Shown here one piece after another: positions 5,642-28,492 of a stretch of DNA of 33,190 nucleotides. The notes under the pieces are model-generated. The model saw only the letters and a list, made by a program, of their open reading frames with translations. It was not told the origin of the DNA and did not search any database. This stretch comes from Monosiga brevicollis MX1 (lineage: Eukaryota > Opisthokonta > Choanoflagellata > Craspedida > Salpingoecidae). The first letter of the stretch is position 1. The number at the start of each line of letters is the position of its first letter. The translations under genes were made by a program, and so were the position numbers. The stretch covers positions 301,094-334,283 of the forward strand of contig NW_001865077.1 of the NCBI RefSeq assembly GCF_000002865.3, read 5' to 3'.

Positions 5642-8600
5642 TTATGAGCTCGTCACAGAGCTGCGGGGAACCTTGCCTTGTGATCCATCCGTCTTCATGA
5701 CCATCATTAGACCCTGTGCATCGGCCTCACCCATGGGAACCAAAACCTCACCGGCCATCACCGTCAACAACCCCTTGCCCGAAACAGAGCGCGTGGCCTT
5801 GAGAATGTTGGACTTTGGCGTCGCAGAAGCACCGCGCCCAGCCGCCGGCCGCGGGCGTGACGGCTTGGTTGGGGGCACGGAAGCCCCTGATGCAGCGCTA
5901 GCGCTGTTGGCTGGCCGAGTTGGCGGTCGCGCCGCAGCTACAGGGCCCCCGGCCGGCTTCTCTGGCTTGCTGGGCGGCCCTGGACGTGTTGGGGTTTTGG
6001 GAGAGTTTGTTTGCCCCAAACTTGATGGCGGCTTGGACGGCATTTGCGGTCGCGCCGGAGGCACCGCGGTGGCGGTACTGGCCTTACGTGTTGGGCGCTG
6101 CGCTGGTGTTGGCGTTGACGGCGACGGCTCCGACAGCGCCACCGGTGCTGTCACTGGGGCCTCCGGTCGGCTGGGCACACCACGTCGCGTTGTTGCTGGT
6201 GAGGACTTTCGGGCTGGCTTAACCACTGCCGGTACCACAGGCGGCTTGGTCGGGACGTTCGCCGGCTTGCTGGGCAACACGTTGGGCTTGGATGGTGTCG
6301 TCACGGGCTTTACCGGTGGGGTACTCGGCGTGGTTGCTGGCTTGCTAGGAGCCGAAGCAGGTTTGATCGGTGCAACTTCCGGCTTGCTGGGTAGCACCGC
6401 GGGTTTGGTGGGTGCCGCTTCGGGTTTGCTACTCGGCACCACCGCAGGTTTGGTGGGTGGCGCTTCAGGTTTGCTACTCGGCACCACCGCAGGTTTGGTG
6501 GGTGGCGCTTCAGGTTTGCTACTCGGCACCACCGCAGGTTTGGTGGGTGGCGCTTCAGGTTTGCTACTCGGCACCACCGCAGGTTTGGTGGGTGGCGCTT
6601 CAGGTTTGCTACTCGGCACCACCGCAGGTTTGGTGGGTGGCGCTTCAGGTTTGCTACTCGGCACCACCGCAGGCTTTGCAGACGCTACGTCCGGCTTGTG
6701 GGCCGTTGAGGAGAACTGGCTGGGCAGGACAGGCGGCTTGGGTGGCGGAGGTACAATTGCTTGAGGTTGTGCGGGCACACTCCCCGAGACATTGCTCTGG
6801 ATGTTACTTGCAGGTGAGGTGTGCGACTTGGCAAAAGCCTTTGGCACGGGGAGTGCAAGACCAGGCATGGCTCCCGGAGGTGGCAGGTTAGCTGCCGAAG
6901 AGGCTCTCGAAGACGAATTGGCTGATACATCATCTGCACTCTTCGCGGAAGACGGCGGCACCTTGTGCGTCACCAATGGCGGTGCTGCTGGAGCCGGGAC
7001 CGGGGCCGGGGCCGGGGCCGGGGCCGGGGCCGGGGCCGGGGCCACCACCTTGTGTGGTGTGGCTGGTTTGGCGGGCTTGGTTTCCGACAATGCCGAAGCT
7101 ACACCAGATGATACCGCGGCTGCATTCGTGACGGTTGCAGAAGACGCGGGTATTTTGGGGACAGCAGATGGCTGAGCCTCGGTTTCAGCTGGGGGTGCAG
7201 GCAGCGGCGGAGCAGCGGGCGGTTGCAAGGCCATTGCCTGTGGCTGCGGCTTTTTGGTTGTTGTTGGTGTTGGTGTTGTTGTTGATGCTGGCGCTGGAGG
7301 TGTTGGCTTTGGTTTGGGAGCAGCAACAGACGTTGGCGTCGACACGGGAACGGAGGTGGAGCTCTGGATGGAACTTGGTGTTTGACCTGCAGCCTCATTG
7401 GCTAGCGTTTGCGAGTTGACATAACGATGAGCTGAGCCCTCGTGTCCCGCAGCCTTGAGTGCAGCTGCGGCGGCTTGCGCCTGGCTGCGTGCTGCCGCCA
7501 CGGCCACTGCCGCAGCTGCACTCTGTGCTTGAGCCACAGCGGGGCTGGGCAACAGCTTTGAAGGTTGGTCGTACTCATCATTGTTTGCCATCGCCACAGT
7601 CTTGGTTGTTGCCGGAAGACTAGGCGCTGCCTTGGATGGTGGGGGCGGCCGATGGCGAGTTCCACCACCATTTGCGTCGTCACTAGAAGTGACAGCGGTC
7701 GTCGCCGCTGCAACAGGAGTACTCTCGACTTGCTTCAGTGTCACGTACGTTGACGGAAACCAGCCCTCGCTTCCACTCGGCAGGCGACCTCGTGCCCAGC
7801 CATCCTGACGCTCCTCCAGCACGCTCACACGGTCCCCCGCCTTCAAGCTCAAATCACCAGCTCGCATGGGGTTGTAGGGATACATGGCTTGATACGAGTA
7901 CTCGGCTTCTTGTTGGTCCTTCCGCAGACCATTCGCTGCTTCGGAAGGCACAGTGTTGGCGGCACCACTGCGCACAGACTCCTGTCGAGACATGATGGCT
8001 TCGTACAAAACGCTGGCATTCTCGGATGGTGGGCCGTCGTAGCGTTGAGGTACTTCGTATGAGTTGCGGCTAATCGAGTTGGATCGCCCCTTGCTGTCCG
8101 TGCCAAAAATACAGTGCTCTGGAAACAGCCCTTGCGTCCCCTTGATCGTACCGCGGACCCAACCATTGCCGAGACGCTCAAGCACGGTAACCTGCTCACC
8201 CTCAACAACCGTCAGCTGCCCGGTGCCAGCAGCCTCAAACGACTGAATGACACGAAAGGCTTCGCCTTCCTCGTCGCCTGTGGGGCGAGCAGGTACGCCA
8301 GGCCCAGCCACCGTGGCCTCCTCATCAATGTCACCATATGCTGGGTCATTGTGTGCATCAACCATGGTGTCACGCTCTTCGACATAGGAAGCTGGAAACC
8401 AGCCCTCGCGTGCACCCAGCGTGCCTCGGTACCAGCCGCGGTCCGTGCGCTCCAATACGCACAACACATCCCCTGCTTTGAATGAGAGACGATCCACAGA
8501 CTCATCCGAGTAATCGTGCTGGGCCACTGCCTCGCATAATACTGTTTCGCCAGTGCTTGACAGTTGTGGCTGGGCGTGACTGCGAGCGGCACCTCCGGGA

Positions 8601-11600
8601 ATGGGCGCCACGGCCGCCTTTTGCGAAACGGTTGTTGCAGGTCGAACGGCAGGCACGGCGACGGTGGCAGCTGGCGTAGACTTGGGTACGGCGGAAGTTG
8701 GTGCTGGCCGCGCATAAGTTGGATTGGCATAGTCAGGATTACCACGCGGCGAAGGCTGAGGCGGCGTGCGCACCACCAACGGCCGTGCCGGTACCTCAAC
8801 TGGCCTTTGTGGAACCAATCCTGCCGTGGTCGTCGGTGCCGGTCGGGGTGAGGCAATTGGCTTCACTTCGGGTGTGCTGTGTTCGCCTAGATCTGGCGAA
8901 CTATACACCGCTGAGGCAGATGGCTGGCGATAAGCAGGGTTGGCATTCATGGTCAATGGCTCTTTGGACTGCGTGCGCGCTGGTTTGCTCTGCTTGCTCT
9001 TGCGCCGGCAGCAACAAAAGTATACCACAACCGCTACCACGACCACTCCCCCTCCAGCAGCGCCGGCAATGATGGCGATAGGCAGCTCGCTGCCGCTGCT
9101 GGCCGACGGTGCCGCAGTGCTCGGAGCAGCCGTTGAGCCTGTGTCGGTGGGTGCTGATGAACTGGCCGCGAGATCCAAGGCTCCCAAGTTGGCCAAGCCT
9201 GAAATGTTCCGCAGCACGGCCAAGAAGTCGACGTCCGTTGCCAACTGAAGTACCACATCCCGAAATTGGCCTATCGTGGTTGTGGATAGGAATGTGACGC
9301 GCGTGGTAACGCTCAAGTCCCCGGTGGCACGCCGGCGTCGAGCCACGGTGCGCACAGTCATGCTCGCGTCCACTACGGGAACGCAGTCGCACGCCTCACC
9401 CAATGCGGCCTGTAAAGCGTCCCGATACGCCACTTGGGCCGCAATGTCAAAGTCATCCATCGTCACCCCTGCAAGCTCCCCGGTCACGTACTGCGTCAGC
9501 CGCGACGGAGCCCGTGTCGAGGTCGTTGCTGGAGCCGGCGTCGTGGTAGGCAATGAGATGCCGACCAGCGCTGCGCAAGCCCTGATGCTAGACCCACGAT
9601 TCGCCGCCAACACAGCAAACGTGCGGCCCGCAACCGTGCCTGCGCCAACCAAAGGCACGTTTTCCACCGCCACGTGCAGACGATTGTTCAGTTCAAGCCC
9701 AATGGCAAGAGTTCCCATCTTGCTGCTCAGTGCACCCACAGCGCAGCCCAATTGGCTCGCTCGGGTGCACGCTGCGCCAGCAGCTGTGACGTTGGCGTAA
9801 GGATCCCAAACTGATCCTGTGGCGGCGCAACCTGCTTCCGTCAATCCCAGGGAGTTGATCACAAAGCGATGATCGTATGTCGTTGGCGTGTTACGCTGAA
9901 AATAGTTGAGGGCCACGTAGGCCAATGTTGGCTCAAATGGCGTTGAAGCAGCCTGCGTCAAACTAACTCGACCCTCAATGGTCCCTTCGAGGGCCACCTC
10001 AACTCGATATGGCTCGACATGGAAGCCTACCGAAGTGCAAAGACGACTGCCATCCAACGCCTCCACGACGAGACTGCGACCAGCCACGCTATTCTTCCCA
10101 AAGAGCGGTAAACCATACACGTCGACTGTCATATCGACCAGCGAAAGGACCACTGTGCTCAAGTCACCCGTGTAGGCGGTCAAGTTTCCCATCTGCAAAA
10201 AATAAAACATTATATCAAAAATAAAAAAAAAATAAAAAAATTCAAACCAACAAGAAATGTGAGCTTTTGAGCCCGCTAACATCGCCCATTCACAATTGCC
10301 TCCCAGCTCTACGAGAAAAAAAAAACCATCTTGGCATAGCTTACCGCAATCTCGCCGTCTACATACGGGTCGTAGAGAGTGCCAGTTGCGCTGGCGGCAC
10401 AGGCCGAACCTGCTGCTTCGGCCGCCGCCGGATCTTGAGGCATGGTAGTCACAAAGGCCCTGTAATATTGGCCATTGAGGTTGTGGAGGGTAAGGACGAG
10501 CCGCGTGGGTGCAAATGGGTTCTGCTGTTTCAGAACCAGGGAGCCATATACGCCGTCGTTGTTCCCCAGGGTAGCCGACAGTTGGCGCTCGTCAATTGCG
10601 TACAGAACGCCGCAGCCCGGTGCACCTGATATGTCGATTGAGATCGACTGCCCAATCACCGAAGCCGGGCCAGATAGGGGCAAGTTCAAATCTATAAATG
10701 AAGCACGCACTGTGCCGTTGATAAACGTCAGCTGCCCATGCTTGCTGCGCAAATCACCAACCGCACAATTTAACTGATAGCCCAAGATGCTGTCGGGTGA
10801 AGACCCTGACCCGCAGGCCTGCGCCGAGGCAGAAGCATTGGCGTTCAAAGGATCAAACACGGGTCCTAAGGCCTCGGCACAATCGTTGGCCATGTTGACG
10901 CCCGCCGATCCCAGCCCCTCGCGGATATAGTAGGACACGCCCACTGTCTGTCCTACCAGACTCGGAATGTGCAGATCCACAACAACCAGCGTTTCGCCTT
11001 CTGCCTCTGCCGCCAGTTGGTATAGCTGAACAGAGCCCAGGATGGCACCACGCAGGTATGCAAAGGCCATCTGAACGTCACGACCCTGATCAAAACCCAG
11101 TGGTGCGCACCAGCGCTCCCCCGTGCTCGGATCGCGAATCAAGAGACCTCGACCCGACACAGAATACAGGCCATAGAGAAAGCGTAGCGGATCAGATATG
11201 GAGGCAGACGAGGTCGCTGGCATGCTGCTGTGCCGAGAACTAAGAGCACCCACGGCACAAATAAACTGCTGCGACGGGCTGCAAGGAGCTGAACCGACTC
11301 CATCCGGGTCAAACGTCGGTCCAATGCGTGGGGCTGCACAAGCTGCGGCCCCATATTGTGCCAGGTCTGGCGCAAATTCAGTGATGGTCCACTCGAAATT
11401 GGCCAATGAATCGAGTCCCGCTTGAGTTATAACCACCTCGGCGTCAACGCTGGCTTGGGACATGGTCACGGTCCCCGAAACGCCATTCATTGCAATATTC
11501 GCCTTAACCAGTCGGCCAGGTTGTAAATCGGGCACGCACACGCCTGAGGCATTAACCACCATGCCTGCCGCACATGCGTAGACACACGTCTCCAGCGCAG

Positions 11601-14600
11601 AATCCCATGCAAAACGGCATCCCGCTCGACAAGATCGAGGGGTTCCGTCACCGCAACCTCCAGGGGCACACAGATAGCTGCAGCCCATACACTGCCCCGT
11701 GGTGACGTTGTAGACGCTCTCAGGGCTGATGGCACTGCAAGTGTCGAAGCACTGGCCGTTATAGTCCCGGTGCCGGCACATGCCCGCGCACCCGGTGGCA
11801 GACGCATTGGTGCACTGTCCTGCGCATTTTAGGTCGCATTCTTCGGTCAACGACGTGACCTCGCGACCACAGTATGGTCCCAACGGTTGATTGCCCACCA
11901 TCAGGAGAGCGGTGCTTCTCAAGCCACGACTAAAACCCGCGGAATAAAGCGGCACGTTACTGCTGAAGTGAAGATGCATGGTGCGGGGCGGAGCTGCAGC
12001 CACGGTCACAATATCAGCCGAAGCGCCAGATTCATGCTGCAATTGCACGCCCGACACAAACGTTGTGTTCCCGCTCGTGGCCACTCGCAAGACCAGTCCG
12101 TCCTGCGTCAACGAGAGGACCGTGCCCAAAGCCAAGCCATCCTCGAGCAGTGCCGTCACGGTCGCTCCGAGGTCGACCATCATGGCATCAGAGAGCACAA
12201 GCAGCACCTCCAGCGGTGCCAGTGCAACCTGACCGAGTTGACTCGACAGGTCACCCACCGCGCAGCCGCCGGGAAGTGAGGTGGAGCACTGGCCCACGCT
12301 GGCACATGCGGTCCCCGAGCTGCCGCCACTGCAAACATTGAACGGGTCGTAGGGCGCATAGGTTGAAGTTGGACAGGCCTCCGCCCCGCTTCTGTCAGTG
12401 TATGATGAACCATCAAGGCTCTGCACGAAGCGCCAGTCGGCGGACGATGTTGAATGAGGCCTGTTGTAGGTGAGCTGATTGAAGATAGCTGTCTCAACCA
12501 AACCATCGTAGGCTAGCTGTTGCAGCTGAACGTGGCCTCGAAGAGCAGCGGAGGAGTTGGGTGCATTGTAACCCATAACTAAAGCTTGCCAAGGGATGGT
12601 GGGCACTAGGTTGGCACATGCTATGCTGCCCTGCATGCCCCATCGCAGAGACCGAAAACTGGCTTGCTCTAAACCAAACAACGACAGTGTTGTCACCGTG
12701 ACGCGTGTTGACCCCCCAACGTCTGGCAGGCTCATGAAACTGCCCAGCGCTCCGGCCTGATCAGCAAGTGCAAATGGTTGGAAGCAGTGCCATCATTGAG
12801 TTGCGCCGGAAGAAAATTGCTAACAAGTGCACAGAACAATAACAAAAAGCAAAATAGACACGGTCTGACAGGCAGGCAACTGACCTGATAGTTGAGAAAG
12901 CTTGTTACGGGGGTGCCACTCAGGACGTCATGCGGGGAGTATATGCCTCCGCTCAGGTCGCACACATCTTCACCAAGCTCGAGCTCGGGAACGGGCAGTT
13001 CGTGCAATGTTAGACTCTGCAGTGCTTCAGTGGCAAGGGCTCCATCTACCTCGACGGTGGTCGGATCAAATGGGCTCGGCTGTGACAACGAAACGGCCCA
13101 CCCACTATGAACAGCACTAAAGCTGCGTGGTGATACCAGGCGAATTGTCGCACACGCCATGCGCGCAGCCCCATTGTTGGCAGCATGAATCGTGATGGAG
13201 CGGTTCAGAATGTCGGGCAGTGACAATTGCACGTCAGTCACGATGAGCTGAGTCGGGCGGGTGGACAAAGCAATTGTGCCATGCTTGGTCGACAAGTCGC
13301 CCGCCTCACAGTCAACCACGCTTTCTCGACACTGCTCCACGTAAGTCGAGCTGCCGGTGTTGACCTGAGTGGGGTTGTAGTGCCCACCAGTAGAAGCACA
13401 CATGCTGGAGCTGCCCGCGACACGATCATCGCCCGCGCCATTAACATGGATGTGCCATTTGTGATTGATGGTATCAGCAATATCAGTGGCATAGCGCAGG
13501 TCTACAAAAATCTGGAGCTCGGCTTCGGGATCATCGGCCAATTGCCGGAAGTAGATGTTGCCCACAACCACGCTGTCGAAATGGGCCACGGCTGTCAGTG
13601 TTGCAGCAGCCGGCAACGCCCGGGCACACGCCAAAGGTTGACCATTACTATTGATCAAGGCAAAAAAGTGATGCATAATGCTACTACTGTAGTAGAGTGT
13701 TGCATTGCCATTCACCACAGATTCTGAAAAGCTATACAGTGAACCGGAGGAAGCTGCACCCGTGCTTGTCCACAACGTTTTCTAAAAAGAAGAAGTGAGC
13801 AAACCAAAGACCAACCAAATGAGGGTGCAGAGCATGGAGACAAAAGATGGATACGCAAAAAGCACTGTAGCGCTTGGCTTGAGGACTTACCGTGGTAACA
13901 TCGCCGTCTGTCGAGGCGACAACGCACTCATCGAGAAACGCGTTTGGCAACAACACGAGTCGCAGTTCGGCATTGGCTGCCACCCCAGCGCCTTCAACGA
14001 CAAGAGCGTCTGCCGGCGAAGCCTGGAGAATCACAAAGTCCATGTTGGCAGCGGCAGAGACAAAGGAAAGGTGGGCCTCCAACGGCGTGATGACACGCTC
14101 GACTTGCAACGTCGCACAAGCCAGAGACTCGAGAGTCGTATCGTCCTGCAACAACAAGTGTGCCCCCCCAATCGAGGCCTGTCCCTCCAGCGGGAGCATG
14201 AGGTCAACTCCAACCTGACTCGGCAGTGCTCCGGTGGGTGCAATCGTCAATGTTCCCAACTTGCGAGCCAAGTCACCAACAGTGCAACCAATTTGCTTAA
14301 CTCCAGGACCGCAGGACGCCGTAGCGTAACCACAGCTTCCGTCAGTGCAGGTATTAAATGGGTTGTACACGAGGGACGAGTTGAGGTCTGAGGGACAGGA
14401 GCTGAGGGATGGGTCGAGAAGATGCCAAGAAGCGGTGGAAGCAGGAGCATCCAAGGCAGCGTAAGCCAGCTGCACAATCACAAACGATTCCGACCGTGGT
14501 TGGCCAAGAATTTGAGAAAATTGCACTAATCCTTGAATGGCGCCGTAAAAGCGAGTTGAAACGGCCTTTAACGTCTGTCCGCGCAAGTCGATGGTCGCAC

Positions 14601-17600
14601 ACGCCAGCCGCGGGCTGCCCGCCGTCACCTCGTGCAACACCACGCTCCGGCCCAGAATCGTCGACGGCCCAAACAACGGCAGGTTGTAGTCCACGTAGCT
14701 CGCACTCACACTGCTCTGCCCCGCAAAGCTCCCGTGCTTGCCCGACAGGTCCCCAACCTCACACTGGTCCACCGTCAAGCCGCTGCTGCTGCACGTCTGA
14801 CCCGCGCCATACGGATCATAATGGCCCTGCACCGCGGCAGCACTGCACTGCGCCCGCCCCGCTGTGCCACCCACCAGATCCGCGCTCGGCACCGGCAACA
14901 CATGGACATGCCAGCCCCCAACGCGCGAGGCCAACCCGTCGAGGTCGACCGACACCGTCGTCGGCGCTCCCGGATACGCCTGGCGAAAGACAATGCTCCC
15001 AACCACGCCCTCCATCGAGAATACTGCGCGTGCTTCCCGCGGTGACATCACACGCAAGCTCGCGCACGCCTGCCGTGCCGCAGCACCATCTGGACCGTGC
15101 AACACAATGGACCGACTGGCCACGCTCTCCGTACCAGACAGCGGCAGCTCCAAATCCGTAAACACGGACCGCGACGTCGGCAGCGTCGCATCGGCGCTAA
15201 TACTCAGGCCACCGTGCTTGCTATACAAATCACCCACCTCGCAGCCAGTCTGAAGCACACCCGCACCACAGCCCGAGCCGTAACCACATGCTTCTGTCAA
15301 GCATACTCCAAATGGGTTGAAGTGCCCCCCGGCAGTAGCACAATCCATCCCACTGACGGCTGTCTCATGCACATGCCACTTGTGCCCAGAAGTCGCCATC
15401 TGCGACCCATCGCTGTACCGGAGATCAGCTAACACGGTTGTCTCCGCAAACACCAGTGATTCGGGCTGCTGCAAAATGATGTGCCCCAATACAGAGCCCC
15501 GGAATTCGGCCACCGACGTCAGCACTTTCACATCGGAGCCCCAGCCAATGGTCGCACACGCCAGCCGCGGGCTGCCCGCCGTCACCTCGTGCAACACCAC
15601 GCTCCGGCCCAGAATCGTCGACGGCCCAAACAACGGCAGGTTGTAGTCCACGTAGCTCGCGCTCACACTGCTCTGCCCCGCAAAGCTCCCGTGCTTGCCC
15701 GACAGGTCCCCAACCTCACACTGGTCCACCGTCAAGCCGCTGCTGCTGCACGTCTGACCCGCGCCATACGGATCATAATGGCCCTGCACCGCGGCAGCAC
15801 TGCACTGCGCCCGCCCCGCTGTGCCACCCACCAGATCCGCACTCGGCACCGGCAACACATGGACATGCCAGCCCCCAACGCGCGAGGCCAACCCGTCAAG
15901 CTCGACCGACACCGTCGTCGGCGCTCCCGGATACGATTGACTAAAGCTCACCGTGCCAGATACCCCTTCCATGGAAAATATGGCTTCGGCACTTCGCGGT
16001 TGCAAGACATTCAAGCTCGCACATGCCTGCCGCGTTCCTGAACCAGCGGGCCCATGTAGCACAATAGACCGACTGGCCACGCTCTCCGTTCCAGACAGCG
16101 GCAACTGCAGGTCCGTGTACACGGCCCGGCTCAGCGGAAGGCTTGCACTGCTTGCCACGCTCACAGCCCCGTGCTTACCGGTCAGATCTCCAAGCTCGCA
16201 ACCATACTGCTGCTGGCCCTCACCACAACTGGCGCTGTAGTTGCAAGCCGAACTCAGACACACGCTGTACGGGTTGTAGTGGCCCTGTGCAGTCCCGCAA
16301 TCCATGTTGCTCACAGGCGATTGATGAACGTGCCATGAATGCCCAGAGGTCGGGCCCATTGACATGTTGCTATAGCGTAAATCCACCACAATGGTCGTCT
16401 CTGCAAAAGCAATGTCGCGCGGCTGTTGCAAAGTAATATGCCCCAGCACACTACCCTTGAACTCGGCCACAGATGTAATCAGTTGCACCTCAGGGGCCCA
16501 GCCAATGGTCGCACACGCCAGTCGCGGGCTGCCCGCCGTCACCTCGTGCAACACCACGCTCCGGCCCAGAATCGTCGACGGCCCAAACAACGGCAGGTTG
16601 TAGTCCACGTAGCTCGCACTCACGCTGCTCTGCCCCGCAAAGCTCCCGTGCTTGCCCGACAGGTCCCCAACCTCACACTGGTCCACTGTCAAGCCGCTGC
16701 TGCTGCACGTCTGACCCGCGCCATACGGATCATAATGGCCCTGCACCGCGGCAGCACTGCACTGCGCCCGCCCCGCCGTGCCACCCACCAGATCCGCACT
16801 CGGCACCGGCAACACATGGACGTGCCAGCCCCCAACGCGCGAAGCTAAACCACTGATGTTGGTGGTGACGGTGGTGTGCGGTTCAAAATAGTTTTGTGTA
16901 AAGGTGATAGAGCCATAAACCCCCTCCATGTCAACCAAGGCAGAGTAGGACCGGGTTGGCTGGGTGATGATGGTCGCACAGGCCAGACGCAGCGAGGAGA
17001 GCGAGCCCTGAAAGACGACGATGCTGCGATTGACAATGCTGTTGAGTCCACTCAGAGGCAGAGCTGTGTCTGTGACAAATACGCGTCGCTGCTGCGGCGC
17101 CACATCCAAGTACCCATGCTTCAAATCCAGGTCTCCCACAGAGCAGGTGCCAGAGGAACAGGGGGTTGAGACGCCGGCTGGCGAGTAGCGGGAGCCAGCT
17201 GAGAAGCATCGACTGCTATCACGAACGGCGTCGATGCCAGTGGGACTGTCACCGATCATCCAGCGATGTTGTTTGGTGGAGCTGACGAGCGCACTGACGT
17301 AGGAATACTTTAAAAACAGCTGGGTGTTGGCAGTGGGATCGTCTCTGGGTTGGCGCATGATAGCATCGAGGCGAAAGTAACTGCCCGTGTCAACACGAGC
17401 CATCAAAGTTGTCATTGGCTGAAACACACGGAGACCCGAGACTGCATCAAGCTGAACGCGTCGTATTTCGCTGCAAGCTACTGGGTTTTGATTGACGTCA
17501 AGAAGAAGGACCGCGTGTCCGATGATGCTTTGCGCGCCTGAGAGAGGCGCAATGGTAGAAGGCAAGAGGCCAGAGCGGCATAATTGGTTGGTGGCGCAAA

Positions 17601-18198
17601 AGGCCTCTGGTAGACGCCCGAGAGACGTGTCGAGATCCCCAATGGCGCAATTGGAGGGATCGGCAGGGGTACACAGCGTTGAATAATTGCTGGCGGCACG
17701 TTTGTTCTCTGGGTCATATCGACCACCAAGAGCTGCTCGGGTACACCGATCGGTGGGAGAAAGGGTGTAATCGACAGGATACTCGGTGATGTACCATGAG
17801 TAAGGTTGTGCGGTCAGTGGCCCGTCAGCCCCGGTAAGGGAGGCGTTGACAAGCACCTTGCCAGCGGTTTGCTGAAACTCAACGATGCCCTGTATCCCGT
17901 GCGTCGCAAAATGGGCCACAGCGTCGCAACTCGAGCACGGAGCCTCGGGCGTCGCTCCTGCTTTGAAGTGAAGTCCACAAATATATGAGAGCCCTGCTTC
18001 AGCTATGAAAAAAAAAAAAAATGGCAGGCTCTACAATGGGGCTCAAACAAGGTCAGAGGGGCGACACTCACCGGCTGCAGGGAGCAGAAGCGAGCACAGG
18101 AGGAAGCAGCGCGCGAGCACTTGGACGTGGTTTGGCGGTGTGGACCGCCTTGCTGAGGGCCCCAGCGCTTTGGCACGCGTTGAACTGTGCGACATCAT
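5642..18198 (-). CDS. Giant SOD-repeat transmembrane protein with SH3 tail
   Basis: Five exons: 18198-18072, 17993-13891, 13781-12885, 12756-10345, 10192-5642. Together they give 12,090 nt, an in-frame 4029-aa protein ending in TAA. The start is ATG 18196-18198 (a second ATG follows at once); it gives a long n-region, then a hydrophobic stretch ending LLLPAAG, read as a signal peptide. Residues about 68-2715 hold some sixteen domains of about 160 aa like Cu-only superoxide dismutase (WHVH, GHYDPY, CEVGDLSGKHG, GRSVVLHE, RLACATI), with a Cys-rich island at about 2005-2117. Then come a Thr/Pro stalk, a SEA-like module (2744-2858), a membrane helix (about 2883-2908), NPxY and other Tyr motifs, SH3 domains at about 3064, 3158 and 3277, a long Ala/Pro-rich region with 15-aa repeats, and a cryptic C-terminal SH3. 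Copper-site residues are complete only in domains 3-7 and 10. It is probably a surface receptor or adhesion protein; the ligand and activity are unknown. Exon joins are predicted, not transcript-confirmed. Confidence 0.88.
5645..5815 (-). other. Cryptic C-terminal SH3-like domain
   Basis: The last 57 residues follow an SH3 spacing: an A-x-R start instead of ALYDY, LLTVMAGEVL matching the L-x-V-x-x-G-E-x-L core, and SQGKVPRSSV matching G-x-V-P-x-x-Y-V with Ser for Tyr. The GW ligand-binding Trp is missing (GLMMV instead), so canonical PxxP binding would be weak or lost. It sits 640 residues after the third SH3. Similarity is to the fold pattern only. Confidence 0.5.
6402..6671 (-). repeat. 45-bp tandem repeat, six units, coding
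   Basis: Six head-to-tail 45-bp units; the four central ones are almost identical. On the minus strand each encodes the 15-aa unit KPAVVPSSKPEAPPT. The units are rich in Pro and Lys and contain PxxP cores next to Lys (for example PPTKP), the general form of SH3 ligands. More diverged KPxxxPSKP units continue on both sides (about 6230-6400). The near-identity points to recent expansion and likely length polymorphism. Confidence 0.95.
7001..7043. repeat. (GGGGCC)n hexanucleotide repeat, about 7 units
   Basis: Seven GGGGCC units read on the plus strand. On the coding (minus) strand the tract gives an alternating Pro-Ala run in the tail of the SOD-repeat protein. Four or more G4 tracts make a G-quadruplex possible on the non-coding strand and an i-motif on the coding strand. 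Confidence 0.95.
7730..7903 (-). other. SH3 domain 3 of the SOD-repeat protein
   Basis: SH3 signature with MYPYNP in place of ALYDY, DLSLKAGDRVSVLEE, then DGWARG and GWFPSTYV. All main ligand-groove aromatics are present (Tyr of the ALYDY-like motif, Trp of GW, Pro and Tyr of FPSTYV), so PxxP binding is expected from family knowledge. Confidence 0.9.
8102..8260 (-). other. SH3 domain 2 of the SOD-repeat protein, degenerate
   Basis: Core pattern SFEAAGTGQLTVVEGEQV, GNGWVRG and GLFPEHCI. The ALYDY tyrosines are replaced (QSFEA) and the final Y-V is C-I, so the ligand groove is altered, although the GW Trp remains. The fold is likely retained with changed or reduced specificity. Confidence 0.75.
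8375..8542 (-). other. SH3 domain 1 of the SOD-repeat protein
   Basis: Typical SH3: AVAQHDYSD at the ALYDY position, RLSFKAGDVLCVLER, RGWYRG and EGWFPASYVEE. It has the full set of ligand-groove aromatics. It lies about 155 residues inside the membrane helix, after a Pro-rich, Tyr-containing juxtamembrane segment. Confidence 0.92.
9008..9085 (-). other. Single transmembrane helix
   Basis: LPIAIIAGAAGG followed by a Val/Ala run and YFCCC, then the basic stop-transfer stretch RRKSKQSK. The small-residue segment AGAAGGG contains GxxxG-like packing and the CCC at the inner face could be palmitoylated. This orients the SOD array outside and the SH3 tail inside. Confidence 0.9.
9158..9502 (-). other. 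SEA-like juxtamembrane module
   Basis: About 115 residues between a Thr/Pro stalk and the membrane. The pattern is an amphipathic helix (DIAAQVAYRDALQAALG), a Val-rich strand, a basic turn ARRRR, and a second strand (LSVTTRVTFLS), as in SEA-like ferredoxin-fold modules common before membrane helices. The RRRR is also a possible furin-type cleavage site. The SEA autoproteolysis motif GSVVV is absent. Fold assignment is inference. Confidence 0.5.
11533..11871 (-). other. Cys-rich furin/growth-factor-receptor-like domain
   Basis: About 113 residues with roughly twenty Cys between SOD-like domains 12 and 13. Spacing such as CAGMCRHRDYNGQCFDTC, followed by YNVTTGQC and later TCVYAC, resembles the furin-like Cys-rich region of EGFR/insulin-receptor-type ectodomains (C-x2-C-R-x-F-x-D-x3-C-x2-T-C then YNPTT). 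It lies inside an exon that also encodes the neighbouring SOD-like domains. Confidence 0.65.
14591..16841 (-). repeat. Three near-identical coding repeats at 957-bp spacing
   Basis: Copies at 14591-14977, 15548-15934 and 16505-16841 are almost identical at DNA level and start exactly 957 bp (319 codons) apart. They encode the C-terminal two thirds of SOD-like domains 7, 5 and 3. The domains between them (4 and 6) are clearly diverged from each other. The conserved blocks are very C-rich on the plus strand at silent positions, unlike the flanks. This indicates a two-domain tandem duplication with later homogenisation. Confidence 0.95.
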
Positions 18199-19906: not shown

Positions 19907-21692
19907 TCAAGATCGCTCGGCGATGAGATTGAGGTCCCGGGAAAGATAAGGATTATTGAGAACGAGGAGCCGCTTGCAAGCCAAGGGAAGACGGTTGGCT
20001 AGCAGCACCCGATGGTCATGGCCAGCCTCGGCATGCATGGTTCGTGCCCGTGCCACACAGAGCGCCTCCAGCGTGGGCACGCCTGTCTCGGGTAGGCCCG
20101 TCTGTCATGCAAGCAAACATATACGGGGGTGAAGGCAGCGTCGGGTATCAGCCATGGGGGTTGGTGGTCGTGCTGCTGAACAACCAAGCGGTTAAGGCGA
20201 GATCTTACGTGGAAAAGATCCACGGCAAGCAAGACTTGCTCCACATCGCCGTGGCCCCGCTGGCGTGCCACGGCCAAAGGCGAGGCATCAGAGTTGTTGT
20301 GGATCTAAGAACGTAATACCACAGAGAAATCATCAGGCCATGCCTTGGATGAGGGCATGAGGAACAAGGGTTTTTTTTTTTTTTTTGGCGACCACAGGTC
20401 AGCGCCAGGTGCCATGAGCCACTGACCGTAGGGTTGGCTCCCGCACAGAGCAGCAGGGACGCAGCTTCAGCATTGCCTGTCGAACAGAAAGGTTTATATG
20501 AGAGGCACGCTTGGCAAGCACACCCGCGAGCCGTGTCTTCAACTTGGGATGAGAAAGTCTCAATGACAGCCCACCACAAAACATACCAGCATAAGCGGCC
20601 GCTCGAAGACAGGTCCGAGACTCGAGACTCTGAGCATTCACGTCGGCACCGGCCTCGATCAGCATTTTAACTATGGAAAGCATTTGCGCGGCGGTGGCAT
20701 GCAAAGCCATTCGTGACACCAAGCCAATCGAGAAACCGAGAGCGAAAGAGCAAGCAAAGGAAAAGAGGGTTGGCACAGTCGTAAAAGCCATCTGCAGTCC
20801 ACCAGTGGCATACCAGCTTGGCGCTTGACATTGGGTCGACCGCAGATAAAGTGCAGAATGGTTTCGCGGCGTAGATTTTTGAGATCAACGGTAGCATCGT
20901 GGTGAATGAGAACGCGCATGCAACCGACGTGGCCAGCACGGGCGGCGAGGGCCAATGGGCTAGAGTGGTTGCGGCAGAGGGCATCCACGTCGCAGTTGTA
21001 CCGCAACAGGGCCTGACAAGTCTCTGCATGACCACTGGAGAAGCGAGAAGGCATTTGGAAAGTATGAGCAGAGGCTGAGCGGCAAGGAACGATGGCAAAA
21101 TGGTTTTGTGCTTGCGGCTTGTGATCACTCGTGGTGCGACCCAAGAGCGAGGGGAGGGGAAAACGCACTGGGCAGCGGCGGCGTGGAGAGGGTGCCAACC
21201 CCGAAGATCCGCCTGCGAGAAGGTAGCACCAGCGCGAACAAGAGGCTCGATGCAGCGAACCAAGCCCAGCTGGGCCGCGAGGTGTAGCGGGGCAATGCCG
21301 GCAAGGTTGGCAAGGGAGGTGTCCGGGCCATAGCCAAGGAGATGCTGCAGGACATCAAGGGCGCTCTCTGGGGTCAGGCAGGTCTGGGCGCCAGCGAGCT
21401 GCGCGTTGGCCATGAGAAGCGATGAGTTGGCATCGAGATTTGCAGCTTCCTCGGCGGCGTAAGCTATGGCGCAGTTGCGAAGGGCAAGGTGAAGGGGCAG
21501 GTTGCCACTCTCATCGATGGGCTGATCGCGGAGTTCAGGTCTTCCGCTGAAGATGGTATCCACCGTGGCTGTATCTCCCGTGTTTAGGGCGTTGATGAGG
21601 TCCTGGCGAGCGAGCGCGTTTTCGTGGGACTGAAGCGCGCGTGTGATGTATGCCGGGTCGAGCTGACTCCAGCTTCCAAACGATCCTGCCAT
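19907..21692 (-). CDS. Ankyrin-repeat protein with SOCS-box-like C-terminus
   Basis: Six exons: 21692-21169, 21034-20814, 20670-20587, 20476-20427, 20304-20209, 20101-19907; 1170 nt, 389 aa, stop TGA. All junctions keep frame and rebuild ankyrin repeats across introns (for example CGRPNV-KRQA joined to VKMLIEAGADVNAQ). About seven repeats span residues 61-327, with motifs NLPLHLALRN, IAPLHLAAQLG, GWHPLHAAAA, SSPLALAARAGH and ASPLAVARQRGHGDVEQVLL. The second repeat carries an insertion of about 40 residues. The C-terminal segment (PTLEALCVARAR then NRLPLACKRLLVL) resembles the SOCS box pattern P-x-S-L-x-x-L-C-R, then LPLP-x-x-L-K-x-Y-L. That would make it an ASB-like substrate receptor for an elongin/cullin ubiquitin ligase (inference). 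ATG 21690-21692 is the first in-frame Met; the GTG upstream was not used. Confidence 0.8.
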
Positions 21693-22216
21693 GCCGGGAA
21701 GTTTGCCAATTTCCAACGCCACGGCGCTCGAGTGCTCGCGCGTGGTCCAGCGGTGCCGATCCGGTGTCGGTCAGGGCAGGATCGGCGAACCACAACCATG
21801 TGCTGCCAGAAGAAGCGCCAATCTGGACGGAGGAGCACACCGGTTATAGCGTCGTGCTACAGCTCCTGGGCAACTGAAATCAAAGAGAAGGCCAAGAAGG
21901 ACGGGCCGGGGCAAGGGAGCTCCCCGTATTTCTGCTCACCCCAGCACGGGGTTCGCAACCGGTTGCGCCCAAAGTCCATGCACAACTCCGCAAAGCCAGC
22001 CAGCCGCGTGTCCACCCTACGTTTCCACCTTTCTCTCCACGGGTCGATCGACCCCCACAGCTCGATCACAACTGCTACTCCTACGCCTCCTCCTCACGTG
22101 CATCCGCGGCAGCGAGCGAGCGGATCAGGCTTTGAAGAGTCCGTCGTCGTGTGCCCACTGCCACTCTCTCTCTCTCTCAAAAAAAAAAAAAAAACTGTTG
22201 AGAGAATGTTATTATG

Positions 22217-22791: not shown

Positions 22792-24197
22792 ATGTATTCC
22801 ACCGCCGACGACCACAATGGATCGGCTCCACCGCCCCAGCCCGTTGGCAGCGCGTCGGGTTTGGAGGACATGCCCACGTACTTTTCCCAGCTCGGCACGG
22901 GGACGGAGGACATGGCGGGCCAGGACACCGACTTTGCCACCGACATGAAGTCATTGGTCGCCGACGTCGACTTGATCAACAGCTTCAACATGCAGCCGAT
23001 GGACACCATCAACACCTCCACCGCCGCCGCCGCCGCCGCCGCCGCCAGCAACGCTGTTGCAGCTGCTGCCGCTCCCCAAGGCCATGGACGCCGCGACACG
23101 CCCGTCATTCAGGTGACTCCTCCTGCTGCCAGCTTCGCGCCGGCCACAACCTACAATGCCTGGCCGCCATCCTCCACCTCCGCCGCCGCCGACGACTTGG
23201 GATCTGCCAATGCCCATGCCCATGTCGTCGACCCTGCTTTGCTGAGTACCATGCATCTTCCCATGGTCGATCTGAGTGATTCCGTGGCGTTGAAAGCACA
23301 CTCCCCGGCGACCTCCGCCTCGGACGCCATGTTCCCGTCCATGGCCTTTAACAACGTCAATGCCGTTTTTGGTCACAGTGGCGCCAATTTACAACCTTCC
23401 ACCGCCCACATGGACACCACGGGGCCCGACTTTCCCAACCTCGAGGATGTCACCGGCATCATCTCCGATCTCCATAGCGCCAGCAACAGCGAATGCAACA
23501 GCGAGTGGAGCGACGTCACCTCGGAAGGCACTCACTCTTCCCTTCACGACTCGGAGCATGACTTGGAATTCTCGGTAAGTCGTCCCGTCGCGCTTCTGCA
23601 GATGTGGGTGTTTTTTTTTTGTTTTTGTTTTTGTTTTTTCCCTTTTCTCCCTCCCTTTTGCCTCTCCGCTCTCATAGCAACTGATCCATTTTTTTTTTTA
23701 CATGTTAATTTTTTTTTCCTCCTGGATAGGGAGATGAGGGCATTCGTCGCCAAAGCGGTCAGTTTCTGAGCGTGCCTCTACGCCAGCGCCAGCCCAAGCC
23801 GGCTGTATCAACGGTTCCATCCAAGTATGCCTGGCCCACCGACGTGCTGGAAATGAGCCGTGCCGAGTTTACCAAGCTGACCCACAGCCAAAATTTGACG
23901 GAGGATCAAATTGCCGATCTTCGCATGGCCCGTCGTCGCCACAAGAATCGTCGCTACCAAAAGGGGGCTCGTGTTCGTCGTCGTGAGCGACGTGAACGCG
24001 GCGAAGTGCCCCACCCCCAGTCCCCGGCACAAATGCGCCGCGACCTCAACGCCACCACGCAACAACTCCAACAAGCCTCCAACGCTTGTACGGACCTCCT
24101 CTCTGCCCTCCGTACGGTACCTGGCGCCCTGCAAGTGGCCCACCAAGTGGCCAACCAACATCCTTTTCTCCAAGACGTACTCCAAAACCTCTCTTAG
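22792..24197 (+). CDS. CNC/Maf-like bZIP-type transcription factor
   Basis: Two exons, 22792-23574 and 23730-24197, joined at a phase-0 intron (GTAAGT...GATAG); 416 aa, stop TAG. The N-terminal 261 residues are low-complexity and acidic, with an eight-Ala run and DVDLINSF, which resembles the DIDLI element of SKN-1/CNC factors. Residues 296-331 match the extended homology/CNC helix region (VLEMSRAEFTKL, then NLTEDQIADLRMARRR). Residues 333-346, KNRRYQKGARVRRR, align without gaps with the Maf basic region (K-N-R-G-Y-A-x-S-C-R-V-K-R), including the Maf-type Tyr. The invariant bZIP Asn and Lys/Arg pattern is only partly kept (S-C becomes G-A), and a Pro-containing break (EVPHPQSP) follows instead of an immediate leucine zipper; a weaker helix follows (QQLQQASN...LLSALRTV). 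It is probably nuclear and DNA-binding; dimerisation is uncertain. Confidence 0.72.
23023..23046 (+). repeat. (GCC)8 poly-alanine tract
   Basis: Eight GCC codons in exon 1 of the bZIP-like gene encode poly-Ala, followed by further Ala-rich sequence. Trinucleotide purity suggests length variability. Confidence 0.95.
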
Positions 24198-26037: not shown

Positions 26038-28492
26038 ATGGCATTTTGCTGGGGGATGGGGGCCGTGTTGGCGTTGACGGCAGCAGAGCCACTGTTGGAT
26101 CGAGCCCCCACACCCCAGCCCGTCAAGTTGCAGCCGAGTCCACAGCCCATCGGCCATGTGATGCCGGGATTTGCTTCCTTTGATCTTGACTGGTTGGTGT
26201 CTGTGCATGGCCGGCGTGGTGTGTGCGTGGATGTGCGTGTGTGACTGCTGCTGCTCATCAACCAGTGGCTGGCCTTGATGACGTGCCGATCTCACCCCTT
26301 GCTCCTCCTGACACTAGGTGGCACAACACATCAGAGTCGGGCGGTAGCTGGGGCAATGCCTCGGTACTCGACCTCAACCTCAGCGACCCCTTTGTTCGCA
26401 ACTATGCTTCTGCCATTGCGCCCGGCGTCCTTCGCATCGGTGGTAGTGAAGACAATATTGTCAAATATCTGTGCGTCATCCCACCGTCCACCCACATGTC
26501 GACACACTCTTTGCTCACAATCAACCATGGCAGGGTCGGGGACATGAACGAGAGCGAATGTCAAGCACCCTCGATCTTTCGCAAACAAAATGTGACCCTC
26601 TGCTTGGACATGGAACGCTGGCAAGCTGTGCGTCGCAGCCTCGAGTCCACGATGGTGCCTGCACGTGTGGCCCCGTAGCTCAATCACGGCGCACTTGGCA
26701 ATGTGCAGGTTCTGCGCTTTACTGCCTCGATTGGCGCCCGTCTGGTCTTTGGTCTGCAGTTTCGCACCAATTCTACCGGCTATGATGGACGAAACACGCA
26801 TGCCCTGCTGCAATGGACCGCTTTACACAATCACACCGTCTGTTGCTCACTTTTTTTTTTTTTTTTTTTGTGACTGCATCCCCCTTTCCCCTTCCCCGAG
26901 TGAGGCTCAATCTTTCCCGACATCACCAGTACAGCTCATTTTGCTCGCCTTCTTGGCCTCCTTGGCCTTGACTTTTGATCTCAGATTCACGCTTTTGAGG
27001 TGGGTGAGGAGATGGCGCCTTGGCCGCAAGGTGCTTCCTTCTCCCATTTGATCGACGCCTACAAGAGCGTGCACCGGTGGACAACCGAGCTCTGGCCAAG
27101 CAATCCCGTACGATTGGTTGCTAGCTCACCCCACGTGAAGCCTGCACCCACCATGGCAAGGCAATTCTCAGCCTGACCTTTGGTGCCTTGCCTCAATGCT
27201 TTCCACAGCCCCTTGTTTTGGGCCCCTGCGTAGGCATGAGCGACGCACCGCCCAATAAAAATGATTTTTGGCAAGGTCAGCTGCCGTGCTCAAATACGTC
27301 ATGACTCTTGCCAGCCCAATCATGGCAGCTCTTGCCAAAGAAACATAGAATAGTTCACGACAACTCGTCTTTCGGATGCCAGCCTTTGTCAATGCCACTG
27401 TCCCCACTGGACTCGTCCAAGGACTCGTCATGCACAGGTATTGCACGCTGGTACGCGTGACAGTCCCAATCTGGTCCATTCATGCACACGGTCTTGATTA
27501 TTGCCCCACGCACTTTGGAATTGCAGCTACAACAACAATGGTGGCAATGACTGGCATCAACCCGGCTTCTTAGATCAGACCCTGGTGCAAGCCCAAGCCA
27601 TGTCCACCATGGCTCGCACGGCCGGTGTTCCCCTATGGTGCGGTGAATGCGGACCTCACAACGGCGGTGGCATTGCCAACGTCACCGATCGCGTCTTTAG
27701 TTCCTTCTGGTACCTTGATGCTCTTGGTGGCCTGGCGCGGCTTGGCCTCTGGGAGTTTGGTCGCCAAGCGTTGGTTGGGTCGCACTACGGCTTGCTGGAG
27801 GTAGGTACTCACGCTCTGCTTTTCGTTCCGGCTCATGCACGACCACGCTTCTCACATCCTCGCTGCCGTCCTTTGCTTGCAGCTGGGCACACACTTTCCC
27901 AACCCCGACGCCTTTGTGGCGATTCTCTTCAACCGCCTCATGGGCACGGCCGTTTTGGATGTGACCCTGACAGCAGGCACCAATACCAGCCAACTGCATG
28001 TGTACGCCCACTGCCACGCGGCTCGCGATGGTCGAGCCGTCTACGCATTTATAAACATTGCAACCAACGTCAGCTTTCAGTACGTGCCGCCATGGCCGCA
28101 TAGCATCTTGTTCAAAAAAGTAACCTTCTCAACACACTGCCCTGCGGCTATTAGATTGGATTGGTCTGATGCAGTCTCTGAACTGGATGTCTGGCTTTTC
28201 AATGGAAGCGACACGGGCAGCCAAGTCGCAACCCTGAACAATCGGACGCTGAAGCGTACCCTGCCCGAGGTAAGGTCTCCCCTTTGTGCTTGTAACTCAA
28301 GAACCTCTCGCCCTCGACCTGGTGCAAGTGCCCCCGATGTGCTGACGCTTTGTTATTCATTGTGCCAAGGTCCCAGACCTTGCTCCCGTTCACTTCGAAG
28401 CCGCCACGCTAATGGTCCCACCCATGAGCTACGGGTTTGTGGCACCCACGGCTGTCTTGGCTGCCTGCACATCATCATCCAAAGCGTCATAA
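26038..28492 (+). CDS. Secreted GH79 glycoside hydrolase (heparanase/beta-glucuronidase family)
   Basis: Nine exons: 26038-26192, 26318-26470, 26534-26627, 26709-26837, 26985-27134, 27349-27437, 27527-27800, 27883-28269, 28370-28492; 1554 nt, 517 aa, stop TAA. All junctions keep frame and rebuild family motifs: GVLRIGGSEDN, LCLDMERW, ARLVFGLQ, AFEVGEEM (acid/base region, E186), LWCGECGPHNGGG (nucleophile region, E297), FSSFWYLDALG, ALVGSHYGLLE, THFPNPDAFVAILFNRLMG, HVYAHC, LNNRTLK and the C-terminal MSYGFVAP. The order and size match plant-type and animal GH79 enzymes, which cleave beta-glucuronides in cell-wall or extracellular-matrix glycans. MAFCWGMGAVLALTAA is a compact signal peptide; ATG 25927 would add 37 residues. 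The usual Asn before the acid/base Glu is Glu here. The least certain join is exon 5 to 6. Several donors are weak (GTGCGT, GTTGGT). Confidence 0.85.

Follow-up and report, generated by a model that had tools for sequence, protein, structure and literature searches.

A single gene of the choanoflagellate Monosiga brevicollis MX1, located within the 33,190-nucleotide stretch of DNA analysed here (the window), is predicted to encode a giant membrane protein in which an extracellular array of 16 superoxide dismutase (SOD) units is joined, through a membrane helix, to a cytoplasmic tail containing SH3 domains and YxxP tyrosine motifs. This composition suggests that a giant surface protein may link extracellular oxygen-radical chemistry to tyrosine-kinase signalling. 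Both the gene model and the domain anatomy were read from the genomic sequence alone; the positions of all features are collected in Table 1.

The SOD-repeat ectodomain and gene structure

The Pfam family Sod_Cu, with which the first-pass annotation of this DNA had proposed to check the repeats, matches exon 2 far above its cut-off (200 bits, 2e-59, six stretches) and exon 3 above it (40 bits, 5.9e-10); the matches in exons 4 and 5 (18 and 14 bits) fall below. An iterated profile, composed of the repeats of this gene and of two related genes of the genome, recognizes 15 units clearly and a sixteenth as a weak remnant (1.9 bits), in agreement with the sixteen or so SOD-like domains counted earlier. 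The first eight units comprise residues 67-222, 238-387, 391-542, 550-706, 710-861, 868-1025, 1030-1180 and 1185-1341. The remnant, unit 9, is found at residues 1422-1466, and the last seven units at residues 1473-1626, 1643-1762, 1781-1906, 2126-2265, 2270-2419, 2435-2568 and 2582-2725. The units are adjacent and connected by short linkers, except between units 12 and 13, which are separated by a Cys-rich island. An unrelated fold for the repeats was rejected, as Sod_Cu and both the phmmer and the profile searches of the PDB match them to SODs.

When the units are aligned to the Cu-only SOD5 of Candida albicans, the four copper-coordinating His residues and the E110/D113 pair are intact in six of the 16 (units 3, 4, 5, 6, 7 and 10). 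The remnant is unaligned at three of the four copper positions and unit 12 at the fourth. One zinc-His position is occupied by Glu in all six copper-intact units. The Cys pair of the intradomain disulfide is present in 12 units, including these six, and the spacing between the last copper His and the second Cys, which bears on the electrostatic loop (loop VII) that CSRP/SOD4 proteins lack, is short, like that of SOD5. SOD5 is also the best phmmer match of exon 2 in the PDB (4.9e-11, compared to 1.7e-8 for the best Cu/Zn SOD). A profile search of the PDB speaks against this preference, however. When the profile is built from 12 units, with the three split units and unit 12 excluded, SOD5 scores 53.5 bits, level with Cu/Zn SODs at 53.3 and 52.7 bits, and a tandem SOD1 chain comes first by summed score. 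Because the preference for SOD5 vanishes with the profile, the Cu-only assignment rests on the ligands. Judged by their ligand set, the copper-intact units fit the Cu-only SOD type, and the label given to them in the first-pass annotation is retained for these six.

Units 3, 5 and 7 have in common a stretch of about 345 nucleotides that covers the copper site and has a sharp edge against the divergent first 125 nucleotides. Within this stretch units 3 and 5 differ at six internal positions, every one of them a third codon position, which suggests a recent exchange between units together with constraint on the protein. In the region 14581-16968 units 3, 5 and 7, nearly identical over these 345 nucleotides, alternate with a second type (units 4 and 6), an arrangement that looks like a duplicated pair. 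A tree of the repeats, in which 16 of the 24 inner branches are open, was used for close pairs only. A tblastn search of phages with units 3 to 8 gave no match, and pattern scans derived solely from unit 3, and so limited to close relatives, gave no confirmed match in 10 viral and 122 prokaryote stretches.

The exons join in frame into a coding sequence of 12,099 nucleotides with a single, terminal stop, which translates into 4,032 amino acids. All four introns (69, 109, 128 and 152 nucleotides) are GT/AG-ended. The first-pass annotation had likewise read one gene over this span and had pointed to intron 4 (10193-10344) as a possible break between two genes. That intron interrupts SOD unit 15, and both halves of the unit are recognizable. 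The 5' half scores 28.6 bits and the 3' half 25.1 bits, compared to 51.4 bits when joined. The halves of unit 11, on the two sides of intron 3, score 24.3 and 6.8 bits separately and 32.2 bits together. As the iterated profile had been trained on these same sequences, these scores were calculated with a model built from the units without an intron, and thus without units 9, 11 and 15. The best scored shuffles reached 4.6 bits for unit 15, 10.8 bits for unit 11 and 4.0 bits for the remnant (190, 185 and 191 of 200 shuffles scored, respectively).

Intron 2 is different, and here the evidence goes partly against a single gene. The 5' half of the remnant scores -1.3 bits, and its 3' half scores better alone (11.3 bits) than joined (9.2 bits). 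Exon 3 nevertheless needs an upstream exon, because a stop lying within the acceptor closes its frame immediately before it and the first Met comes only at residue 36. The intron 2 join is therefore supported by the splice sites, the phase and the lack of a start in exon 3, but not by homology. Two neighbouring genes could have been wrongly fused at intron 4 or intron 2, and besides the remnant, which gains nothing from the join, the in-frame ATG that opens exon 5 would agree with this. Such an artefact is very unlikely, given that intron 4 lies inside a SOD unit, that the score of unit 11 rises across intron 3 and that exon 3 lacks its own start; even with a break at intron 2, moreover, the SH3 protein would retain SOD units. 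The five exons are, on the genomic evidence, a single gene for a predicted type I membrane protein.

Table 1. Positions of the gene, its exons and encoded domains in the window, and of two genes elsewhere in the genome (L-numbered stretches)
Feature	Position	Strand	Remarks
Whole gene	5642..18198	minus	5 exons, 4,032 amino acids; spliced frame with GT-AG introns
Exon 1	18072..18198	minus	start codon, larger part of the signal-peptide-like hydrophobic stretch
Exon 2	13891..18002	minus	SOD units 1-8, beginning of remnant unit 9
Exon 3	12885..13781	minus	remainder of unit 9, unit 10 (copper site intact), start of unit 11
Exon 4	10345..12756	minus	remainder of unit 11, unit 12, Cys-rich island, units 13-14, start of unit 15
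Exon 5	5642..10192	minus	remainder of unit 15, unit 16, pre-membrane module, membrane helix, tail
SOD units 1-2	16960..17943	minus	copper site not intact
SOD unit 3	16495..16968	minus	four Cu His and E/D
SOD unit 4	16003..16494	minus	four Cu His and E/D
SOD unit 5	15538..16014	minus	four Cu His and E/D
SOD unit 6	15046..15537	minus	four Cu His and E/D
SOD unit 7	14581..15054	minus	four Cu His and E/D
SOD unit 10	13134..13616	minus	four Cu His and E/D
SOD unit 15	10025..10602	minus	split by intron 4; each half scores
SOD unit 16 (last)	9557..10024	minus	copper site not intact
Cys-rich island	11539..11871	minus	no Pfam match
Pre-membrane module	9191..9508	minus	holds the RRRR furin-like site
Membrane helix	9023..9091	minus	predicted from hydropathy
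SH3 domain 1	8369..8542	minus	Pfam and PDB match
SH3 domain 2	8093..8266	minus	Pfam match
SH3 domain 3	7730..7903	minus	Pfam and PDB match
Degenerate fourth SH3-like C-terminus	5645..5815	minus	weak score
45-bp tandem array	6395..6678	minus	6.3 copies, 98% match; encodes part of the proline-rich (PxxP) tail
Contig 30 relative	L020:6140-9999 and L021	minus	
Cadherin-SH2 gene	L022:1854-7001, running into L042	plus	VWD match just below cut-off

Membrane-proximal region and cytoplasmic tail

The predicted protein starts with a signal-peptide-like hydrophobic stretch (residues 25-43, hydropathy 1.88). The membrane helix, already recognized in the first-pass annotation, is placed at residues 2888-2906. 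Its hydropathy is 2.65, and it is the sole window with a value above 2.0. Below the Pfam cut-off the helix also matches EphA2_TM and small membrane families of viruses; these matches were taken as hydrophobic chance.

Two modules of the ectodomain had been described earlier as a Cys-rich, receptor-like island and as a SEA-like domain. The first is indeed rich in Cys, containing 16 of them within residues 2008-2118, but it has no Pfam match, Sod_Cu being the only family matched in exon 4 at E<=1. The second description finds no support, as Pfam SEA has no match before the membrane at E<=10. Elsewhere in the genome nothing matches the pre-membrane module (three candidates scored), and a comparison with the equivalent region of the contig 30 relative described below revealed no convincing similarity (3.4 bits, partly low-complexity). 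The sequence RRRR (9329-9340), followed by a GDLSV stretch, is the sole R-x-[KR]-R motif before the membrane. At least one such motif occurs by chance in 24% of shuffles, and the motif is only a hint of furin cleavage.

The predicted cytoplasmic tail comprises the 1,124 residues after the membrane helix. Pfam SH3_1 matches exon 5 in three stretches with 120 bits (2.8e-35). The best PDB match of the tail is the N-terminal SH3 domain of Grb2, which aligns with SH3 domain 1, and SH3 domain 3 matches the SH3 domains of Btk and PACSIN. The fourth SH3-like segment scores 7.1 bits, a value that none of the shuffles reaches (maximum 4.7 bits, 396 of 500 shuffles scored). Thus of the three or four SH3 domains annotated originally, three are certain and the fourth is degenerate.

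The tail contains 18 tyrosines, ten of them outside the SH3 domains. Seven of the ten are in YxxP motifs and the other three in the sequences YGDI, YEAI and YVNS. Known shapes of SH2 ligands are YxxP for Crk, Abl and Nck, Yxx followed by a hydrophobic residue, and YxN for Grb2, and we take all ten tyrosines to resemble one or another of these. NPxY occurs three times, compared to 0.08 times in shuffles (none of 2000 reaches three). There are 56 PxxP motifs compared to 33 in shuffles, and nine PxxPx[RK] motifs compared to 3.4 (p 0.009). The 45-bp array lies within the coding sequence of the tail and is possibly variable in length. A search of the genome for the SH3 tail gave 25 matches, this gene included. 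The one match that was looked at, on contig 35, is a 1,081-residue frame that by eye appears cytosolic and PI3K-like, and it was not accepted as an instance of a shared tail.

Related proteins in the genome

The genome searched consists of 57 contigs with a total of 39.47 Mb. A genome-wide SOD scan scored ten candidates, all of them in the genes on contig 18 and contig 42, and missed a further gene on contig 30. The contig 42 relative aligns with exon 2 in three stretches with identities of 55%, 58% and 32%. Six SOD units are readable in it, the second of which aligns poorly and the last four of which have an intact copper site. It resembles the protein described here in having SOD units and a membrane helix, but its tail is short and neither SH3 nor SH2 is matched in its frame. 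A run of N (L009, approximately 6056-7858) lies immediately before the gene and hides its start.

The contig 30 relative is very large. It, too, contains SOD units, a membrane helix and a tyrosine-rich tail, the latter with YDGV/YEGV repeats, but differs in the presence of bacterial-surface-Ig-like domains, in the absence of an intact copper site and in probably possessing an SH2 rather than an SH3 domain. The stop of its frame is at L020:7632. The SH2 match (2.6e-8, above the cut-off) is in another open frame, which overlaps this one and also contains tyrosine repeats that by eye are similar to those of the tail. When introns of 55-400 nucleotides are considered, a GTGAGG donor joins in frame to the SH2 frame at eight acceptors, and 83 GT/AG combinations exist in all. 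The contig 30 relative thus probably carries SH2 via the next exon, and the genome would contain SOD-repeat membrane proteins of three sorts, one with SH3, one with a probable SH2 and one lacking both domains.

Next to the contig 30 relative is a gene that encodes, in a single frame of 2,002 amino acids, cadherin, TIG and EGF domains together with a membrane helix and an SH2 match. On this reading of the frame, receptors with a cytoplasmic SH2 domain are not new in this setting. SH2 has 114 matches in the genome and none in 14 prokaryote controls, and PDZ has 146 matches; a DLG-like protein of the genome matches the PDZ chain 6x1p of mbDLG at only 65 bits. PK_Tyr_Ser-Thr has at least 169, a family that also covers non-tyrosine kinases and has matches in nine of the 14 controls. 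NAD_binding_6 has one match, to the C-terminal third of the family only, and the adjoining frames look NOX-like by eye. Ferric reductases also belong to this family. Such a repertoire is in keeping with a choanoflagellate-like holozoan, as the first-pass annotation had assumed.

The frames flanking the SOD-SH3 gene in the window, 20667-21770 (minus), 23730-24197 (plus) and 26190-26678 (plus), contain ankyrin repeats, a Maf-type bZIP and a marginal match to glycosyl hydrolase family 79. No link of these genes to the SOD-SH3 gene was seen.

Possible functions and known systems

We tentatively propose, with somewhat less than even confidence, that the protein is a membrane protein of the CSRP/SOD4 kind, whose copper units make H2O2 and whose adaptor-type tail docks phosphotyrosine partners. 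The signal-like start and the helix suggest that the ectodomain would be displayed at the surface with the tail inside. It would arrive there metal-free and take up copper outside the cell, and units 3-7 and 10 would then dismutate superoxide to H2O2 at the membrane, a step suggested by the conservation of the ligands and by the biochemistry of Cu-only SODs and of an oyster CSRP, reported to be an active SOD, as described in a 2026 review (PMC13017621). The superoxide may come from the cell's own NOX, from a neighbouring cell or from bacterial prey, and the other ten SOD units may serve as a spacer or a binding surface. Local H2O2 would inactivate tyrosine phosphatases and so favour phosphorylation of the tail. 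Precedents are found in two papers. H2O2 derived from ecSOD is reported to raise VEGFR2 phosphorylation via oxidised protein tyrosine phosphatases (PMC2858087), and H2O2 from NOX-made superoxide has been proposed to act in regeneration in the case of SOD4 (PMC10416458). The motifs of the tail point to a docking platform. Its YxxP and NPxY sites would be phosphorylated and bound by SH2 proteins, and its SH3 domains would bind PxxP ligands. Possible partners are among the SH2 and PK_Tyr_Ser-Thr matches and the one NOX-type gene recognized by eye. The coupling to phosphotyrosine signalling put forward in the first-pass annotation accords with the motifs of the tail and with the probable SH2 of the contig 30 relative. 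Of this scheme the anatomy alone is read from the sequence; the mechanism we infer.

Several observations weigh against such a mechanism. The copper site is not intact in ten of the 16 units, nor in any of the six SOD units of the contig 30 relative, and catalysis is therefore not a requirement common to all SOD-repeat membrane proteins. The enrichment of YxxP is modest (seven compared to 3.1 in shuffles, p 0.02), and YxN (p 0.07), Yxx[ILVM] (p 0.12), [RK]xxPxxP (p 0.26) and PxxxP[RK] (p 0.66) are not enriched over shuffles.

The chief rival to the H2O2 mechanism is that the SOD units are mainly a structural or binding scaffold of a long adhesion or prey-contact receptor, which signals through SH3 and YxxP, the copper sites being secondary. 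The first-pass annotation had allowed for either superoxide chemistry or a SOD fold reused for adhesion. The units of both proteins that lack the copper site and yet match the SOD profile agree with the scaffold, as does the frame elsewhere in the genome that combines cadherin repeats, a membrane helix and SH2. Copper-less CSRPs of arthropods and tardigrades, and the oyster SOD-like protein dominin, which participates in immune recognition, provide further parallels in the same review (PMC13017621). However, six units here and four of the six readable units of the contig 42 relative have retained the four His along with the E/D pair, which drift would hardly achieve. Since six of the 16 units have an intact copper site and ten do not, both of these readings are kept, the predominantly structural one as the somewhat less likely.

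An endocytic or phagocytic scavenger receptor, in which NPxY and SH3/PxxP serve to internalize ligand or bacterial prey and the SOD units shield the contact zone from superoxide, is decidedly unlikely. The excess of NPxY and the bacterial diet typical of choanoflagellates are in its favour, but NPxY also serves in docking of phosphotyrosine-binding (PTB) domains. It is still less probable that the protein is an antioxidant CSRP of the familiar membrane-anchored type, whose tail does no more than fix it to the cortex and has no part in signalling; the activity reported for the oyster CSRP (PMC13017621) and the short tail of the contig 42 relative fit this, but the long tail with three SH3 domains and YxxP and NPxY motifs exceeds the needs of an anchor.

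A SOD-repeat ectodomain fixed to an SH3/YxxP tail in one protein, alongside a relative in the genome that probably carries SH2, would mean that the job of such an ectodomain can include signalling. A unicellular organism allows a direct test of signalling from the SOD ectodomain to the tail, and an unusual ectodomain would be added to the receptor repertoire of the relatives of animals. A broader proposition, which we regard as unlikely, is that of a class of catalytic receptors, in which an ectodomain enzyme makes the second messenger H2O2 and promotes phosphotyrosine signalling via the protein's own SH3/YxxP tail, with SOD repeats having acquired SH3 tails and, in a separate case, SH2 tails within a single unicellular lineage close to animals.

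The closest known systems are the CSRP/SOD4 proteins (CUSR). According to the review, CSRPs contain 4-12 units, are secreted or anchored by glycosylphosphatidylinositol (GPI), and generally have one or two N-terminal units without a copper site; the largest, from Capsaspora, has 12 units, nine of them with a copper site, and the function of CSRPs 'has largely remained enigmatic' (PMC13017621). SOD4 is reported to have a C-terminal transmembrane domain, to occur in choanoflagellates and filastereans, and to be essential in tadpole tail regeneration, where H2O2 signalling has been proposed (PMC10416458). The first-pass annotation had placed multi-domain Cu-only SODs in animals. That is correct for animals but too narrow, since the family is also reported from Capsaspora and, as SOD4, from choanoflagellates and filastereans. 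The protein described here shares with this group the tandem Cu-only SOD units and, as predicted, the signal peptide and the extracellular location; as in CSRPs, units 1 and 2 have no copper site, and as in SOD4, there is a membrane segment. It differs in having 16 units (six intact) compared to 12 in the largest reported, in its Cys-rich island and pre-membrane module, and in its internal helix, which is followed by the SH3/YxxP tail, whereas the known proteins are secreted, GPI-anchored or end in a membrane segment. C. albicans SOD5 has the same four copper His, the same E110/D113 pair and the same KHG after GDL. Unlike the array on a receptor-like protein found here, fungal Cu-only SODs are single-domain and GPI-tethered or secreted, as stated in the review (PMC13017621).

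The terms SH3, transmembrane and choanoflag- are absent from the main text of that review (PMC13017621). No report of a SOD-repeat protein with an SH3/YxxP tail was found among the listed titles and opening lines of abstracts in the open-licence literature on Cu-only SODs, on SOD4 and Capsaspora, and on choanoflagellate SOD or SH3 receptors. The earlier statement that no receptor joining SOD and SH3 was known agrees with this as regards the tail, but membrane-anchored SOD4 had already been reported. Docking proteins of the p130Cas, CIN85 and DCBLD2 type are presumably alike in their SH3 domains, in their multiple YxxP and PxxP sites, or in both; they differ in that they are not known to have a SOD ectodomain. 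The membrane anchor is not new. What is new in the predicted protein is the receptor-type SH3/YxxP tail, carried by a protein of the CSRP/SOD4 kind.

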